Virus record (IMG/VR): IMGVR_UViG_3300046777_000501
Span: 1 to 21,916 of that record
Length of the DNA stretch: 21,916 nt
Direction: 5' to 3' (one strand)
Source of the DNA: a virus
Shown here: positions 4,937 to 20,079 of the stretch, in pieces
How the letters are laid out: each line of letters begins with the position of its first letter
How positions within the stretch are numbered: the stretch's first letter is position 1
Program-made: the position numbers and the translations under genes
Notes under the pieces: generated by a model
Told to the model about the DNA's origin: nothing
Databases searched by the model: none
What the model saw: only the letters and a program-made list of their open reading frames with translations

Positions 4937-5087
4937 TAGTCTTAAAATAACACAAAATGAAGATGGGTCATTTACAATGGATTGGGATCCAGAAGATCCA
5001 AATTGGAAGTGGTTGAATGGGTTGACTTCCAAAGAGATTCAGGTTATTATGGAACAAGCAATCAAGGATTATCTCAATGACCTCTGA
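4926..5087 (+). CDS. Small acidic Trp-rich protein (53 aa)
   Basis: ATG at 4926 lies within the last codons of the previous gene; TGA at 5085-5087 lies within the next gene. The product, MSADSLKITQNEDGSFTMDW and onward, has a DWDPEDPNWKW Trp cluster and a C-terminal amphipathic helix. Small proteins of this form recur in cyanophages. Function unknown. Confidence 0.75.
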   Translation: MSADSLKITQNEDGSFTMDWDPEDPNWKWLNGLTSKEIQVIMEQAIKDYLNDL

Positions 5088-5679
5088 TTTTGATTATAAA
5101 AAGTATTCACTTGAAAAACTCCAAGAGTGGGTTCACGATGCTTTAAGTTCTGGAGAAGCATCACCTCATGAAATTTATTCTGCCATTCGTGAAGCGGTGC
5201 AGGAAGATTATCAATACTATAAAGATCACGCTAATCGTGCATTGGGACTGCTTGAACTTATGAGCGGTCATCGTCCCGTAAAAGATACTTCAATTCTTCA
5301 ATGCGATAAAGACGATAAATCTCCAGAATGTCAAGAAGCATGGAATAGTTTTTGGGAAGAAAACTATTATCCAGAAGAATATCGAGGATCTTCAGTAAGT
5401 AGTGTAAATCTTCAAAAAGAAGTAGAGGAGATTCGTAAAGCTGGTGGATATGAGTGGACACCAGAAGTAAAACAAGACAAAGTAAAAAAATGGGTTCTTC
5501 CTGTTGAAGAACTTAGAGATGAAGATACTGGTGAAGATGAATATTGCTTAACATTCCCCGATGATCTTCTAGAAGCATCAGATCTTAAAGAAGGAGATCA
5601 AGTTGAGTGGGTTGATAAAGGTGATGGTTCGTATTTACTGCGTAAGGTAACTAAACCACTTGGAATGGATGAGTGCTGA
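5077..5679 (+). CDS. Two-part protein with AbrB-like C-terminal domain
   Basis: A 200-aa protein. Residues 1-65 are helical (YSLEKLQEWVHDALSSGEAS...), residues 66-130 are acidic and Cys-containing, and residues about 143-193 read WVLPVEELRDEDTGEDEYCL followed by FPDDLLEASDLKEGDQVEW and a DGSYLLRKV strand. The last part resembles the swapped-hairpin AbrB/MazE DNA-binding fold (LPx.l...l.L.eGD.v.w). It could be a phage DNA-binding or transcription-modulating protein, but the domain here is acidic, so protein binding is equally possible. Coupled to its neighbours by short overlaps. Confidence 0.6.
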   Translation: MTSDFDYKKYSLEKLQEWVHDALSSGEASPHEIYSAIREAVQEDYQYYKDHANRALGLLELMSGHRPVKDTSILQCDKDDKSPECQEAWNSFWEENYYPEEYRGSSVSSVNLQKEVEEIRKAGGYEWTPEVKQDKVKKWVLPVEELRDEDTGEDEYCLTFPDDLLEASDLKEGDQVEWVDKGDGSYLLRKVTKPLGMDEC

Positions 5680-7377: not shown

Positions 7378-8052
7378 ATGTCAGAACCTGCTTTTTGGGA
7401 TTTTAAACTAAAACAAAGTCGTGAGCCAATTTGTGCTTCGATGATTGAAAATTTCGATAAACTTTATATTGAGTTGACTCACTTTGCTGGAATGGCAGCA
7501 CATTGGTCACTCCCCTATTTTAATCCTCTTGTGGTGGATCCTGACAATGGTGATCAGACTCCACTATACACTGGTAATTGGACAACTCTTCCTGTTGGAT
7601 ATGTTGATGAAGAAAGATCTGTAAGTCCAGAGTTTCTTGACTTTAAAGCAGAACAGGAAAAGAAACTAGATATGAATCTTGATGATACAATTAGGAGACT
7701 TCGTAAGCGTGGTCTTCCTATTCTTCATGGTCTTATTTGGCGAGCAGAAAGAGATAAGAAACTTGCCAATGCTTTCCTGGGTACACTTCATCCTGGTGCT
7801 GTTGTGAATCGCCACAAAGGGTGGACAAAAGAATATGTTCGTGTACATCTTGCTCTCTCTTGGGATGATGATGCCGCAACAATAACTGTTGGTGATGAGA
7901 CTAGAACATGGATGGATGGTGATATCCTGGCATTCCGAGATCAGGGACCATATTTTATCAGTATGAAGAACGAGAGTAAGGATCAAGAAAGACTTTATCT
8001 TTCTTTTGATTTGAGTGTGGATTATCTGAAAGAGTACATTGATATCGAATGA
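7378..8052 (+). CDS. Aspartyl/asparaginyl beta-hydroxylase-like, distal His missing
   Basis: A 224-aa protein with the core of the Asp/Asn beta-hydroxylase family (cupin, Fe(II)/2OG): LHPGAVVNRHKGW (proximal His146), YVRVHLALSW, ITVGDETRTWMDGDILAFRD, and ERLYLSFDL with Arg205. The distal iron ligand, His195 and His179 in its two downstream paralogues (GPYYHSVVH, GPLKHSVVH), is Ile194 here (GPYFISMKN). AspH-type enzymes use only two His for iron, so this copy may be inactive, regulatory or altered in chemistry. It has a good GGAG site and starts the three-gene block. Confidence 0.8.
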   Translation: MSEPAFWDFKLKQSREPICASMIENFDKLYIELTHFAGMAAHWSLPYFNPLVVDPDNGDQTPLYTGNWTTLPVGYVDEERSVSPEFLDFKAEQEKKLDMNLDDTIRRLRKRGLPILHGLIWRAERDKKLANAFLGTLHPGAVVNRHKGWTKEYVRVHLALSWDDDAATITVGDETRTWMDGDILAFRDQGPYFISMKNESKDQERLYLSFDLSVDYLKEYIDIE

Positions 8053-8717
8053 CACACGAACCAGAATTTTGGGAAGATTATTTGATGGAGGAACCCATAT
8101 GCCGCAGATTTATGCGGTATTGGAGATTTATTAAGTGGGAACTGATTATTAAATCTAAGTTATTTCCAAAAGTTGGGGGATCTTCATATAAATGGATGAA
8201 CCCATATCCAAAGTATAAGATTGAAGATCCAGAAACTGGTAAAAAGGTAAAAATGTATGATAATACTTGGGATGTTCTAGCTCTTTCTAGATTCAGCGAA
8301 TCATATCATCATGAGGTGAATATGATCGTCAAAAAGTTACAGGGTGGAAAGGATCTTGATACTTTAATTGATCAGTATCGGTGGATTCTTACTCCTGTAA
8401 TTCATAATATTATCAAAGGTCCAGAAAAAGATGGAATACTTGCCAATATGTTCTTAAGTATGGTATCCCCTGGAACAATCATTCGTCCTCATCAAGGATA
8501 CTCCAAGGATTATATGAGAGTTCATTTATGCCTTGTTGAAGATCCTGGATGTACAATAACTGTAGGAGAAGTGACAAAAACTTGGAAGAATGGTAAAATA
8601 TTAGCATTTAAAGATGGTGGACCATACTATCATAGCGTTGTTCACAACGGAAAGAAAGATAGATATGTCATGTCATTTGATCTTAGACTAGATTACCTGG
8701 AGAAATATCTAAAATGA
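8049..8717 (+). CDS. Aspartyl/asparaginyl beta-hydroxylase-like protein, copy 2
   Basis: A 222-aa paralogue of the previous gene, coupled by ATGA. Family motifs are complete: SPGTIIRPHQGYSKDYMRVH (proximal His148 and the RVHL strand), CTITVGEVTKTWKNGKILAF, then GPYYHSVVHNG with distal His195 and DRYVMSFDL with Arg205 for 2-oxoglutarate. Expected reaction: O2- and 2-oxoglutarate-dependent hydroxylation, perhaps of an Asp or Asn side chain or a small molecule. The N-terminal 110 residues are divergent between the paralogues and probably set substrate choice. Confidence 0.85.
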   Translation: MTHEPEFWEDYLMEEPICRRFMRYWRFIKWELIIKSKLFPKVGGSSYKWMNPYPKYKIEDPETGKKVKMYDNTWDVLALSRFSESYHHEVNMIVKKLQGGKDLDTLIDQYRWILTPVIHNIIKGPEKDGILANMFLSMVSPGTIIRPHQGYSKDYMRVHLCLVEDPGCTITVGEVTKTWKNGKILAFKDGGPYYHSVVHNGKKDRYVMSFDLRLDYLEKYLK

Positions 8718-9346
8718 GTCAAAATCAAAAAATAGCATTCTGGGATCCATATTTTGAGGATGTCCCAGTTTATAATGAATTAATTGAGAATTATCCTGCA
8801 ATCAGAGAAGAAATTTTAAATTTCTGTGAAGCTCCTTTATCTTTATTTGATTATCCAAGATATCAAATTGATGGTAGGAATTTATATGAACATTATTGGA
8901 AAGCTGCTCCTTTAACTAAGTTTGAAGGAGAATTCATGTCTTCTTATGCTACTGACCAAGAAAGAGCATTTCTGAATGTAATTATTCAAAATTCTAGAAA
9001 AAAATGTCCTATTACCACTGACATACTTAGTAAGTATGAGGAACAATTGGATGTTCTTTGCAATTCATTTATTAGTCGATTAGTTCCTGGTTCCGTTATC
9101 AATCCACATACGGGATGGACAGATAATTATATGAGAATTCATCTTGGTATTTCTTGTGATCCTGGATGTAGAATTACAGTTGGTGCTGAAACAAGAACTT
9201 GGGAAGATGGTAAAATTCTAGCATTCAAAGATGGTGGACCTCTCAAACATTCTGTTGTTCATGGTGGAACAAAAGAAAGAATTATTCTATCCTGCGATGT
9301 AAAAATTACATATCTTCAAAGGTATGTTGCAGAGTTGCATTATTAA
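8714..9346 (+). CDS. Aspartyl/asparaginyl beta-hydroxylase-like protein, copy 3
   Basis: A 210-aa third paralogue, again overlapping by ATGA. Motifs: VPGSVINPHTGWTDNYMRIH with proximal His132, CRITVGAETRTWEDGKILAF, GPLKHSVVHGG with distal His179, and ERIILSCDV with Arg189. Both iron ligands and the 2-oxoglutarate Arg are present, so activity is expected. AT content is high in this gene and rises toward its 3' end, after which transcription may end or restart (56 bases without a gene). Confidence 0.85.
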   Translation: MSQNQKIAFWDPYFEDVPVYNELIENYPAIREEILNFCEAPLSLFDYPRYQIDGRNLYEHYWKAAPLTKFEGEFMSSYATDQERAFLNVIIQNSRKKCPITTDILSKYEEQLDVLCNSFISRLVPGSVINPHTGWTDNYMRIHLGISCDPGCRITVGAETRTWEDGKILAFKDGGPLKHSVVHGGTKERIILSCDVKITYLQRYVAELHY

Positions 9347-11838: not shown

Positions 11839-12405
11839 ATGAACATTTTCGACATCCCTAACGCAATTCGTGTTGGTGAGGTTACTCTGAATGGAAGTGA
11901 ATATAATGGAAATAAGTATGTCTTCCATAAAAAGAGTTTGGGGTTGGTTTATGATATTAACTTTCCGAAAGAACTTAAGCGTAAGCATGTATCTCTTGTC
12001 TATATTTTGTGTGTGAACGGAGAGATCTACAAGATCGGTCAAAGTTCTTGTGGTAGTGGCATTGAAGGAACCATGGGTTTCTATTTGAAGTCTGGTCAAG
12101 ATGATCCTGGCATCAACAGATTTGCAATCAACTGGTTCATGAGAGAAGAACTTAATAAGGGAAATAAAGTAGAAGTTTTTATGATCTATATGGAACCCAT
12201 TGAGATTGAGGTTCCTGGTCTGTTCAAGAGTGAGAAAATGATTGTGCCTGTGAGTGCAAAAGGTATTGAACAAAACTGCCTGATGCAGTATAATTCTATT
12301 GAGGGATGTTATCCTAAATGGAATTATCAGGAAACTGGTATTGCTCTTCCTGATTCTATTCATGAGGCATTCGGGCAGTATAAAATCGATCGTAAGAATA
12401 AATGA
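11839..12405 (+). CDS. Putative GIY-YIG-like nuclease
   Basis: A 188-aa protein. Residues 51-69, VSLVYILCVNGEIYKIGQS, fit the GIY-YIG core (VYIL for GIY, IYKIG for YIG, about ten residues apart), and a later Glu144 with IEQNCLMQYNSIEG followed by YPKWN fits the family's metal-binding Glu and 'P..N' end. It overlaps the Dam-type methyltransferase gene by ATGA. In the GIY-YIG family this arrangement is seen in some type II restriction endonucleases, so a phage restriction partner or homing-type enzyme is proposed. The match is partial; the catalytic Arg is not certain. Confidence 0.5.
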   Translation: MNIFDIPNAIRVGEVTLNGSEYNGNKYVFHKKSLGLVYDINFPKELKRKHVSLVYILCVNGEIYKIGQSSCGSGIEGTMGFYLKSGQDDPGINRFAINWFMREELNKGNKVEVFMIYMEPIEIEVPGLFKSEKMIVPVSAKGIEQNCLMQYNSIEGCYPKWNYQETGIALPDSIHEAFGQYKIDRKNK

Positions 12406-13304
12406 AGACTCCTATTCGTTACGCTGGTGGTAAGTCTAAAGCGTACAAGATTATCACACAATATATTCCCAGACTTCCATATCCACAACGTATTATTTCA
12501 CCATTCATTGGTGGTGGTAGTTTAGAGTCTAAGTGGGCATCTGAACTTGGAGTTCCTGTTTATGGGTTCGACATCTTTGATGCTCTGGTCAACTTCTGGA
12601 ATGTTCTTCTGTCTTCTCCGAATGAGTTGGCAGATAAACTCCAGGAGTTGACTCCTACGAAGGAAAAATATGCTGAGATCAAAGAATTGCTGTTGCAGTG
12701 GGAATATACTCAGGATATGCTCAAAGATTGGCACACAGATTACTACAAACGTGATGCCATTAAACTGGATGATCTGACTGCTGCAGCATATTATTACTTC
12801 AATCATAATCTGTCCTATGGACCAATGTATCTTGGTTGGATGAGTAAGATCTATGAAAGTCAGACCAAATGGGATAAGATGGTTCACAATATCAGGTCCT
12901 ATAAAAATAAGGATCTACATGTAGAAAAGGCATCGTTTGTTGATGTTATCCCAGAGCATTCGAATGATTTGCTCTATCTTGATCCACCATATTATTTGGA
13001 TAAAGATTCTGATAATAAAATGCTGAAGGGAATGTATCCAAATTGCAATATTGATGTGCATCATACTGGATTTGATCATGAGAAGTTGAGAGATCTGTTG
13101 CACAATCATAAGGGTAGTTTCATTCTGTCTTACAATAATTGTGAAACGATTCGTGAATACTACAAAGATTTTGATCAGTATTTCCCAGAATGGCATTATT
13201 CCTATCAGTTAGGAGAGACACGTATTGGTGATAATCGTATTATCTCTGGGGGCAACAATACTAAAGAGTCGCATGAGATTCTGATTGTGAAGGTAGACGG
13301 TTGA
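12402..13304 (+). CDS. dam: DNA adenine-N6 methyltransferase (Dam/D12 class)
   Basis: A 300-aa class D12 (alpha group) adenine methyltransferase: KTPIRYAGGKSKA at residues 2-14 (SAM-binding FxxGxK-type), ISPFIGGGSLE at 32-42 (motif I/'FxGxG'), and LLYLDPPYYLD at 190-200 with catalytic D194-P-P-Y197. Length matches T4 Dam and host Dam (about 260-280) with a small extension. Likely target GATC or a related site, though the target cannot be read from the motifs. It would protect phage DNA from host or its own restriction; the overlapping upstream gene looks like a nuclease. Confidence 0.9.
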   Translation: MKTPIRYAGGKSKAYKIITQYIPRLPYPQRIISPFIGGGSLESKWASELGVPVYGFDIFDALVNFWNVLLSSPNELADKLQELTPTKEKYAEIKELLLQWEYTQDMLKDWHTDYYKRDAIKLDDLTAAAYYYFNHNLSYGPMYLGWMSKIYESQTKWDKMVHNIRSYKNKDLHVEKASFVDVIPEHSNDLLYLDPPYYLDKDSDNKMLKGMYPNCNIDVHHTGFDHEKLRDLLHNHKGSFILSYNNCETIREYYKDFDQYFPEWHYSYQLGETRIGDNRIISGGNNTKESHEILIVKVDG

Positions 13305-18376: not shown

Positions 18377-19201
18377 ATGGCAGAGAGTGAATATCCCTCA
18401 TTAGGTGATCAGGGAAAAAATCTGGCAAAGTTTACATTTGAAGTTTTAAAGGAAGCATTCAAAGGTGGAACTGAATCTCTCTTTGTGAATGAAGAGATTC
18501 AACGCAAACGTCTGGATATTTGTAGAGCATGTAATTACTTCGATCCTGATCAAGGTCGTTGTAGACATTGTGGTTGTTTCCTTGCTTATAAGGTTCGCTT
18601 CTCATTAGAATCCTGTCCTCTTGAGAAATGGACAGTGAGTGAGGAAGATTGGATGGAAAAAACATTCGATCAATTCAAGGAAAAGATTCTGAATCCAGAT
18701 CCAGAAACTCCACGTCCACGATTCCCATTTGAAAAGGAATTGGGTACAAAGTATAGTTGGACAATGCCTGAACCTGATGGTCGTACATTGCACTGGTATT
18801 GGAATGGTTCGATGTGGGAATTCGATGAAACTCCTGATGAACCCAATTATAGTGAAGAAGAAGTAGAAGCACATCGTTTGATGATTGAAGAACAACAACG
18901 TCAGTTTCAGTCGGATACTACTGGATTTGTTGATCATCCTATTATGCAACAAGATTCTCCAGATGTAATGATGTGGAAAAAAATGGAGAGAGAAAGACTC
19001 ATTGCAGAGGGTATTGATCCTGATGTATTGGATCAAAAAGATGAGAAAGATGAACAGCAAATTGATGAAGATACAAACTATTTGATTGATTCTATTATTG
19101 ATGAGATTGCAATGAATACACTGGAATCTGTTGTTGAAGAAGAGGTAAAACCTAAGAAAAAGAGAGGTAGACCAAAGAAGGTGAAAAATACCGAAAATTG
19201 A
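18377..19201 (+). CDS. Cys-cluster protein with C-terminal AT-hook
   Basis: A 274-aa protein. Residues 46-85 contain C49-xx-C52, C62-xx-C65-x-C67 and C80 (ICRAC, CRHCGC, ESCPLEKW), a probable zinc ribbon of a kind seen in cyanophage virion or tail-associated proteins. A Trp-rich segment follows (HWYWNGSMWEFDE at about 132-146), then a long acidic helical region, and the C-terminus is KKKRGRPKKVK (260-270), a classic AT-hook that binds the minor groove of AT-rich DNA. AT-rich DNA with inverted repeats lies directly downstream. Family not recognised with certainty. It ends at a good terminator. Confidence 0.75.
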   Translation: MAESEYPSLGDQGKNLAKFTFEVLKEAFKGGTESLFVNEEIQRKRLDICRACNYFDPDQGRCRHCGCFLAYKVRFSLESCPLEKWTVSEEDWMEKTFDQFKEKILNPDPETPRPRFPFEKELGTKYSWTMPEPDGRTLHWYWNGSMWEFDETPDEPNYSEEEVEAHRLMIEEQQRQFQSDTTGFVDHPIMQQDSPDVMMWKKMERERLIAEGIDPDVLDQKDEKDEQQIDEDTNYLIDSIIDEIAMNTLESVVEEEVKPKKKRGRPKKVKNTEN

Positions 19202-19208
19202 CTAAATT

Positions 19209-19229
19209 ACCCCTTTTTAGGGGTTTTTT
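19209..19229 (+). terminator. Rho-independent terminator
   Basis: Six-bp stem ACCCCT/AGGGGT with a TTTT loop (19209-19224) followed by a T run to 19229, eight bases after the TGA at 19201. Closes the fibre/Cys-cluster gene block. Confidence 0.85.
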
Positions 19230-19230
19230 A

Positions 19231-19345
19231 ATGTAAATTTAATTAAAAAATATATTAAAAAACATATATTGCTATTTTATTTGATTCTCAATAAGTGAAT
19301 AATTAATGAGAATCAATAGTGTATTATAGTTGAGAATAAGTCTTC
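19231..19345. other. AT-rich non-coding block
   Basis: About 115 bases, almost wholly A and T, without a plausible gene on either strand. It holds A/T homopolymer-like runs, the 10-bp inverted repeat at 19281-19316 and a TTGAGAATAAG element (19330-19340) found again at 20043-20053. It would melt easily. It ends abruptly against the GC-rich hairpin at 19409. Confidence 0.7.
19281..19316. repeat. 10-bp perfect inverted repeat in AT-rich block
   Basis: TTGATTCTCA at 19281-19290 and its exact reverse complement TGAGAATCAA at 19307-19316, separated by 16 A/T-rich bases. The left arm belongs to a 14-bp element TTGATTCTCAATAA that recurs unchanged at 20018-20031. Confidence 0.8.
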
Positions 19346-19408
19346 TAAATGCTCATAAATGCCTCCAGGTCTTGTGAGCTTAGCGAGCGTATCATAAGAC
19401 GCGCAGTT

Positions 19409-19450
19409 TGTCAAGCCCCGCCGCCGCACCAAAATCCAGGGGGGTTGACA
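19409..19450 (+). repeat. GC-rich hairpin overlapping the -35
   Basis: TGTCAA (19409-19414) pairs perfectly with TTGACA (19445-19450), and the adjoining CCCC (19416-19419) with GGGG. The loop includes CGCCGCCGCACC. The right arm is the -35 box of the promoter at 19445. The GC content contrasts sharply with the AT-rich block before it. Position just upstream of an early-type promoter fits the PeSL cassettes. Confidence 0.7.
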
Positions 19451-19473
19451 ATCTTATAAGACTATGGTAGAAT
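19445..19473 (+). promoter_or_regulatory. Near-perfect sigma70 promoter P1
   Basis: TTGACA (19445-19450), 17-bp spacer containing the palindrome TCTTATAAGA (19452-19461), TAGAAT (19468-19473). Best promoter in the window. The first CTCGACTAG repeat starts at 19474, directly after the -10, so a bound protein there would overlap the transcription start near 19480. Confidence 0.85.
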
Positions 19474-19725
19474 CTCGACTAGATGTTACGAGAAGCACAC
19501 AAATCTCGACGAGAATACATATATATCATTATGATCTCGACGAGAACGTGCATCATAAGGGCTTGCAATCTCGTCGAGCTATATGCTATAATACACAAGT
19601 CAATCAATCTCGACGAGCTTATGTACGACGACTACGATATCGACTATACATTCAGCAACGATTATAATCTCGACGAGGATTCATACTACGAGAATTATGC
19701 ACGAGGTGATGCAGATCTCGACGAG
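19474..19725. repeat. Array of seven CTCGACGAG near-palindromes
   Basis: Copies at 19474 (CTCGACTAG, one mismatch), 19505, 19536, 19570 (reverse orientation, CTCGTCGAG), 19609, 19669 and 19717, each nine bases. Intervals are 31, 31, 34, 39, 60 and 48. All are preceded by AT; six of seven share [A/G]AT. The first three are spaced out of frame; the last four are all in the frame of the downstream acidic ORF, reading Leu-Asp-Glu or Leu-Val-Glu. The 9-mer is CTCG-A-CGAG, a perfect 4-bp palindrome around one central base. Confidence 0.9.
19563..19592 (+). promoter_or_regulatory. Possible promoter P2 inside repeat array
   Basis: TTGCAA (19563-19568), 18-bp spacer that contains the inverted repeat copy CTCGTCGAG, TATAAT (19587-19592) in CTATAATAC, the same -10 context as the stem-loop cassettes. 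It would drive the ORF at 19621 with a leader of about 20 bases. Confidence 0.55.
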
Positions 19726-19782
19726 GATTATGCACGAGATGGGCAAGACTACGAAGGTCTTGCATATCGTCATTATGCATGA
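19621..19782 (+). CDS. Very acidic Asp/Tyr-rich small protein (53 aa)
   Basis: The frame is open from 19483, but its first part is encoded by promoter and array DNA; the CTATAATAC at 19586 makes ATG 19621 the likely start. The 53-aa product (MYDDYDIDYTFSNDY, later NLDEDSYYENYARGDADLDE) has about 13 Asp, 4 Glu, 11 Tyr and only 3 Arg, a net charge near -14. Such composition resembles small phage DNA mimics that block restriction or nucleoid proteins (for example Ocr-like roles), but no homology is claimed. Two CTCGACGAG repeats in the ORF encode Leu-Asp-Glu. No good ribosome binding site. Confidence 0.45.
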   Translation: MYDDYDIDYTFSNDYNLDEDSYYENYARGDADLDEDYARDGQDYEGLAYRHYA

Positions 19783-19813: not shown

Positions 19814-19972
19814 ATGCATACTACACCTACAAAACGCATACTACGTGTTACACTAGATCTTATGTGTTATGATGATCTAGAACTAGATGGTATTGATTGG
19901 CGTGAGATGCTACACCTAGAAGGTGATGAAGAGGTACATGTTAGCATCAAAGATTACACCGATATCTTCTAG
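19814..19972 (+). CDS. Small hypothetical protein (52 aa)
   Basis: ATG at 19814 gives MHTTPTKRILRVTLDLMCYD, followed by DLELDGIDWREMLHLEGDEE and a strand ending SIKDYTDIF. The strand-helix-strand pattern and the form are familiar from cyanophage early proteins (recollection). Weak GAG ribosome site. CTA is used for Leu much more than in other genes here. The stop TAG at 19970-19972 lies inside the left arm of the long inverted repeat. Confidence 0.7.
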   Translation: MHTTPTKRILRVTLDLMCYDDLELDGIDWREMLHLEGDEEVHVSIKDYTDIF

Positions 19973-20079
19973 TGTGCCAGTTTGGAGATTGGTCTTATTC
20001 TCAATTACTAGTACTTATTGATTCTCAATAATGATATGCTTATTGAGAATAAGACCAATTGGAGAACTGGCACACTAGA
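19968..20079. repeat. Long imperfect inverted repeat (about 37-bp arms)
   Basis: Left arm 19968-20004, right arm 20043-20079, complementary except for one 6-base internal mismatch block; loop 20005-20042. The mismatch is not random: both arms read TTGGAGA in the same direction, so it is a direct repeat inside inverted arms. The loop holds another hairpin, TTATTGA-ttc-TCAATAA (20015-20031). The outer 12 bases (AGTGTGCCAGTT / AACTGGCACACT) contain the head sequence of the promoter cassettes. Confidence 0.9.

Follow-up and report, generated by a model that had tools for sequence, protein, structure and literature searches.

Organization of the locus

The window, as we call the whole stretch of 21,916 nucleotides analysed here, is an IMG/VR virus fragment whose annotated relatives are Synechococcus phages, mostly Kyanoviridae (T4-like cyanophages). 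Downstream of a terminated gene with a DUF6171 domain, and running from a promoter into the first of two small genes, lie seven copies of the near-palindrome CTCGWCGAG, six exact and one with a single mismatch (Table 1), and there is no other exact copy in the whole 21.9-kb record. The region upstream of this array (around 19281..19340) is conserved among relatives. On either side of the two-gene unit, at 19281-19340 and 19968-20079, stand repeats of the type TTATTGAGAAT/ATTCTCAATAA that by eye resemble Fur boxes, and TTATTGAGAAT is 7-fold enriched upstream of the array locus (136 loci). Structure prediction for the acidic ORF immediately after the array gave no confident fold (pLDDT 62).

Table 1. 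Features of the array locus, in coordinates of the window
Feature	Position	Strand	Basis or remark
Upstream gene with DUF6171 domain	18377-19201		Pfam
Terminator-like hairpin with T tail, ends upstream gene	19209..19224	+	Consensus scan
Inverted repeat TTGATTCTCAATAA / TTAATGAGAATCAA and TTGAGAATAAG	19281..19340	.	Fur-box-like by eye
Promoter P1: TTGACA 19445-19450, 17-bp spacer, TAGAAT 19468-19473	19445..19473	+	Consensus scan, 11/12 matches
Putative operator 1, CTCGACTAG, one mismatch, immediately 3' of P1 -10	19474..19482	+	Placement identical in AG-345-L05
Putative operator 2, CTCGACGAG	19505..19513	+	
Putative operator 3, CTCGACGAG, upstream of P2 -35	19536..19544	+	Conserved position
Promoter P2: TTGCAA 19563-19568, 18-bp spacer, extended TATAAT 19587-19592	19563..19592	+	
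Putative operator 4, CTCGTCGAG (T centre; - strand reads CTCGACGAG), within P2 spacer	19570..19578	-	
Putative operator 5, CTCGACGAG, end 3 bp before ATG	19609..19617	+	
53-aa acidic ORF, MYDDYDIDYT...LDED...ARDGQDYEGLAYRHYA	19621..19782	+	Start and end conserved, 54 aligned homologs
Putative operator 6, in-frame Leu-Asp-Glu	19669..19677	+	
Putative operator 7, in-frame Leu-Asp-Glu	19717..19725	+	
Half-site CGAGAT, in frame (ARD)	19735..19740	+	
52-aa conserved small protein phrog_12516, second gene after array	19814..19972	+	
Long imperfect inverted repeat, 38-nt arms, 87% complementary, closes two-gene unit	19968..20079	.	

A recount bore out the positions of the seven 9-mers (one mismatched, one inverted) that the original prediction had placed at 19474-19725, with start-to-start spacings of 31, 31, 34, 39, 60 and 48 bp, and the array does begin right after the -10 element of a promoter. 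The mismatched form CTCGACTAG is the main form in phage P-SSM2 and is frequent in S-T4, so the first copy need not be decayed. With regard to the concern that shuffled sequence might often yield such arrays, dinucleotide shuffles contain 1.47 copies on average when one mismatch is allowed, and seven were reached in 0 of 100.

Two further claims about the spacing hold only in part. The last four copies had been assigned to a coding frame, and the frame is indeed common to all of them, but no more than two, those at 19669 and 19717, are within a gene. Because the conserved gene begins at the ATG at 19621, the multiple-of-three spacing covers fewer copies than had been claimed: the copies at 19570 and 19609 share the frame of the gene but lie upstream of its start, and the former, which had been read as Leu-Val-Glu, sits within the spacer of the second promoter, P2. 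As for a spacing of three helical turns, distances of 31-33 and 42-43 bp dominate but there is no sharp 10.5-bp period, which leaves the pattern suggestive only; strict helical phasing was rejected, periods of 9.1 to 10.5 bp fitting equally well.

Two other regions of the window deserve mention in their own right. Adjacent endonuclease-like and DNA adenine methylase genes at 11839-13304 form the part of the window nearest to known isolates, at about 74% DNA identity to S-SCSM2R, whose annotation names the two genes in this way. Three consecutive similar ORFs of about 210-224 aa at 7378-9346 share the motifs ...VHL.LS.D..... and FKDGGP and, judged by eye, form a tandem gene family.

Recurrence of the array in T4-like cyanophages

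The array recurs in cyanophages, both in viral contigs and in isolates. When viral contigs were scanned for pairs of neighbouring copies, at least 120 loci matched, against 1 for the reversed-pattern control, and the loci among the matches listed carry clusters of two to eight copies. The isolated T4-like cyanophages S-SRM01, S-T4 and P-SSM2 have the array at the same place, and in S-SKS1 it is degenerate, with two full copies and many CGAGAT half-sites. These arrays are restricted to a few kilobases per genome. In the 240.8-kb genome of S-SRM01 all 11 copies fall into three clusters at 85.5-91.0 kb (within about 5.4 kb), S-T4 has an array of five, mostly CTCGACTAG, and P-SSM2 has 4 CTCGACKAG copies in 252 kb, all inside 138 bp. 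A genome-wide pattern search found no cluster in DSL-LC03, S-CAM7, S-B05, S-SCSM1, SynMITS9220M01, Bellamy, S-SM2 and S-SCSM2R, and a second such search found none in Sf-CH8, ACG-2014f and S-PM2. We found no description of the array in an open-access library of papers, and a literature search with the exact sequence returned only primers and unrelated work.

Two further possibilities were discarded. An HNH homing endonuclease adjoins the array of S-SRM01 but is absent beside the array in the window and in S-T4. A host-genome origin was rejected as well, the listed prokaryote matches being nearly all high-GC coding coincidences; the exceptions among them, L201 and L223, also encode the neighbouring gene of the phages and have the look of phage fragments that were misbinned or have integrated. 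On the contig L201, which was assigned to a Flavobacteriales MAG, the array is accompanied by the small conserved gene and the AbrB-like gene, and this contig resembles a misbinned piece of a cyanophage.

Conserved layout and selection on the DNA

A common order of promoter, array, short acidic ORF and phrog_12516 small protein is found in 94 loci, of which 82 are distinct after removal of duplicates; counts over these homologous loci are not independent, since the loci share ancestry. The acidic ORF, homologs of which are also present in S-SRM01, S-T4 and S-SKS1, ends in LAYRHYA or similar. We called a sigma70-type promoter in 73 of the 82 distinct loci, and multiple palindromic sites lie over it: its 17-18-bp spacer holds a full site in 68 of the 73 and a half-site-like CGAG in the remaining five. 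In P-SSM2 and AG-345-F15 this promoter is near-perfect with the site in its spacer, TTGACA-AT-CTCGACTAG-ATCTG[GC]-TATAAT, the P-SSM2 promoter itself reading TTGACA-AT-CTCGACTAG-ATCTGG-TATAAT. In 79 of the 82 distinct loci another site stops 0-9 bp short of the ATG, and one or two are usually in frame within the acidic ORF as Leu-Asp-Glu. In a set of 68 loci found via proteins instead of the motif, 57 have at least three sites. Three of these loci have no called promoter, and the spacers of the other 65 contain a full site in 48 cases, only a half-site in 11 and neither in 6.

Inside the ORF the copies fall in the Leu-Asp-Glu frame in 120 of 121 cases. Leu-Asp-Glu is encoded as CTCGACGAG in 114 of 142 occurrences (80%), as compared with 5.2% expected from the codons elsewhere in the same ORFs. 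Most loci in this test had been found through the motif, and it was therefore repeated on the protein-found loci, where Leu-Asp-Glu is written CTCGACGAG in 64 of 98 occurrences. The alignment columns of the sites carry 1.66 bits against 0.97 for other columns, a difference inflated by the partly motif-based choice of loci. Because the use of CTCGACGAG is far above codon expectation, the DNA itself is selected, and these counts show that the motif is maintained as DNA and is not a by-product of the acidic protein. The proposal that one motif serves as both a promoter-type array and a coding sequence is therefore well supported by the comparison of layout, frame and codon counts.

Half-sites and phages without the full array

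The unit of the site is a 13-bp palindrome, ATCTCG-W-CGAGAT, of which some phages have one half only. The half-site ACGAGAT replaces the full array at six loci (L361, L375, L376, L380, L386 and L387) and ACGAGAA does so at two (L373 and L390); in most of these half-site loci the promoter spacer and the position before the ATG are again occupied. In relatives of S-SKS1, whose own array is chiefly CGAGAT, this half-site alone builds the array. The pattern suggests a single binding system in which the site has shifted between a palindromic and a half-site form.

The original prediction had named, as a sign of chance or lineage noise, related phages that lose the 9-mers while keeping the flanking genes. 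Some phages do keep the small gene without the 9-mers, but those looked at in detail either lack the acidic ORF as well or have half-site arrays at the same positions, with Sf-CH8 as the exception. Bellamy and SynMITS9220M01, which have neither array nor acidic ORF, show a plain promoter before the small conserved gene. In Sf-CH8 full operators are missing, but the acidic ORF and the second gene are retained, as is an AbrB-fold protein that is 71% identical to that of S-T4.

Many genomes carry one to three additional arrays in intergenic gaps, 1-5 kb apart. Among 33 such secondary arrays, one has a sigma70-type promoter with the site in its spacer and 32 have none. They fit auxiliary operators and equally a non-transcriptional function; distant arrays in promoter-less gaps might act as auxiliary operators for looping or as a roadblock.

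Interpretation of the array

We consider it probable, on the strength of sequence comparison, that the sites of the array are operators through which a DNA-binding regulator controls a strong, host-type sigma70 promoter in a small-gene region of T4-like cyanophages. Repressor or activator operators had been among the functions originally proposed, and they are the best-supported candidate because the site lies in the promoter spacer in nearly every relative, although the iterons of a replication origin, also proposed, remain a serious rival. Palindromes in a 17-18-bp spacer and over the transcription start occupy classical repressor positions. Activation by DNA distortion of the MerR type uses 19-bp spacers, and the optimal spacer length found here speaks against it. 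In the window the sites would overlap the transcription start of P1, fill the spacer of P2, flank its -35 element and adjoin the start codon. RNA polymerase should be blocked by a protein at these positions, which makes repression the likeliest effect. Protein binding, repression and an early shut-off are all inferred, the timing because a strong host-type promoter sits among small genes; the promoter would be shut off once the regulator has accumulated. An alternative use of the same sites would be immunity against co-infecting relatives. To our knowledge, the MotA/AsiA system of T4 is missing from T4-like cyanophages. A more far-reaching version, which we think unlikely, is that these phages, regarded as strictly lytic, possess an immunity-like repression circuit in which a phage repressor of a new kind bridges the arrays over the promoter and those kilobases away, the array being embedded in a protein gene so that promoter and coding sequence form one evolving element.

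The palindromes might instead be the iterons of a replication origin, with AT-rich melting, host DnaA boxes and transcription from the promoter that primes or activates replication. Lambda ori is a precedent for iterons within coding sequence, and the repeats are palindromic with iteron-like spacing. The 900 bp that precede the second gene show a 10-fold enrichment of the DnaA-box-like TTWTCCACA (0.41 vs 0.041/kb, 136 loci). In 18 of the 136 loci (the window is not among the 18) these boxes form clusters with spacings of 11 or 21 bp, and the genomes of S-SKS1 (151414-151456) and S-SM2 (58064-58085) have their sole clusters at this locus; this enrichment and these sole clusters keep the origin reading alive. 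However, S-SM2 has no array, so array and boxes are separable and the boxes may mark a separate feature. An origin also does not require a site locked in the promoter spacer in nearly all relatives, and a single genome can carry several arrays. In P-SSM2 the cumulative GC skew peaks about 300 bp or less from the array, but origins are not usually marked by a maximum, and the extremes of other genomes are at least 10 kb away. GC skew was rejected as evidence of an origin: several genomes have extremes close to the locus, S-SKS1 and SynMITS9220M01 do not, and the sign is wrong. No phage initiator protein was recognised in our gene-content comparison. Overall, we judge an origin unlikely but deserving of serious attention. 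The region of DnaA-box-like enrichment corresponds to 19201-19440 of the window, and such boxes in T4-like cyanophages may possibly indicate a replication origin or a DnaA-controlled promoter.

The other readings are less probable still. A host regulator could bind the sites, either exploited for expression or titrated by a decoy array; the promoters are of host type, Fur-box-like repeats adjoin the array, and cyanophage genes are wired to host regulators such as PhoB. Yet we know of no cyanobacterial regulator that matches the motif, and in a one-genome-per-species scan of prokaryotes the matches listed include no cyanobacterium and are almost only high-GC, mostly with two copies, as expected from Leu-Asp-Glu codons; we hold a host regulator to be improbable. 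Action in RNA, on the translation or mRNA stability of the acidic ORF, seems more doubtful again, even though one copy abuts the ATG, copies share one orientation in most arrays and the half-sites of the S-SKS1 type are unidirectional: that promoter does not transcribe the copies upstream of the -35 and in the spacer, and a palindrome with a one-base centre forms no hairpin. A structured RNA was discarded because neither the window nor the surroundings of the AbrB-like gene matched Rfam. Hardly credible is an origin by chance, codon preference or lineage noise. Some Leu-Asp-Glu codons are to be expected in a neighbouring ORF rich in Asp and Glu, but the shuffles, the reversed-pattern control, the clustering in a single region of whole genomes and the codon test all speak against it, and recurrence in distant phages refutes it.

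A candidate regulator

If the sites are operators, the leading candidate for their regulator, albeit a weak one that we think doubtful, is a phage protein of about 58 aa with an AbrB/MazE fold, encoded about 3-9 kb downstream of the array. In a comparison of gene content between four array phages and four without, gp185, the S-SRM01 version of this protein, was the only plausible non-antisense S-SRM01 gene present in the former and missing in the latter, but with more queries a weak match appeared in S-SM2, so its absence from array-less phages is not strict. Loci fetched via the AbrB-like protein and covering the region upstream of the second gene have the array in 19 of 19 cases, and array loci fetched via the second gene with at least about 9 kb downstream encode the AbrB-like protein in 18 of 18; as the two regions are syntenic, this co-occurrence shows linkage rather than function. 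In P-SSM2, where it is P-SSM2_102, and in AG-345-F15 the protein was found before arrays were sought there.

The AlphaFold model of the candidate (pLDDT 82) has the swapped-hairpin beta-beta-alpha-beta-beta fold, and its best structural matches are AbrB, MazE and SpoVT, with modest Z scores of 5 to 7. Pfam MazE_antitoxin matches 21 of 44 homologs with a best E value of 1.4e-4, the listed members falling short of the curated cut-off, and a PDB profile search with the AbrB-like alignment found no sequence relative. Basic residues of the kind that contact DNA are scarce in the N-terminal hairpin, where only Lys2 and Lys3 are frequent, and the protein is very acidic, with a mean net charge of about -9. 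In none of 105 distinct loci is the AbrB-like gene preceded by an operator within 400 bp. Sf-CH8, with the protein but without full operators, counts against the candidate.

The leader of the AbrB-like gene is strongly conserved in two versions, CTAACCTACAAAGTGTTACG and CTAAGCTATAAACGACCCA (L396, L402, L408, L417, L313 and L127), with no Rfam match where scanned. The window itself has, at 5077-5679, a 200-aa ORF with a C-terminal AbrB/MazE-like domain (Pfam E 3e-4, phrog_661 E 1e-6).

Implications and comparison with known systems

T4-like cyanophages are abundant in seas and lakes, and the control of their transcription is poorly known. A conserved and genome-specific family of operators would give a direct handle on a regulator, and possibly on early shut-off or immunity to co-infection. 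It would also show with unusual clarity how regulatory sites within a small gene come under selection at the codon level.

A purely formal analogy may be drawn with AbrB and its acidic antirepressor AbbA, in that an AbrB/MazE-fold protein co-occurs with an array that would control a small acidic protein; the difference is that here the AbrB-fold protein is itself very acidic. Gp5.7 of T7, a small DNA-binding phage protein that shuts off early promoters of the host RNA polymerase, is a possible functional analogue, as it silences the phage's own early sigma70 promoters (PMC5569994). Gp5.7 differs in being winged-helix-like and in binding RNA polymerase, and the parts of that paper considered here describe no comparable operator array (PMC5569994). 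Origins of the lambda type resemble the locus in their palindromic repeats in coding sequence, AT-rich flank and nearby promoter, but the locus studied here keeps one repeat fixed within the promoter spacer and belongs to genomes with more than one array. The array is also similar to the multi-site repressor operators of temperate phages, such as OL/OR of lambda: a strong sigma70 promoter is covered by several palindromes, and additional arrays lie a few kilobases off. It departs from OL/OR in that the phages are T4-like and regarded as lytic, the sites number up to eight and run in frame into a gene, the repressor is putative, and half-sites take the place of the palindrome in some relatives.
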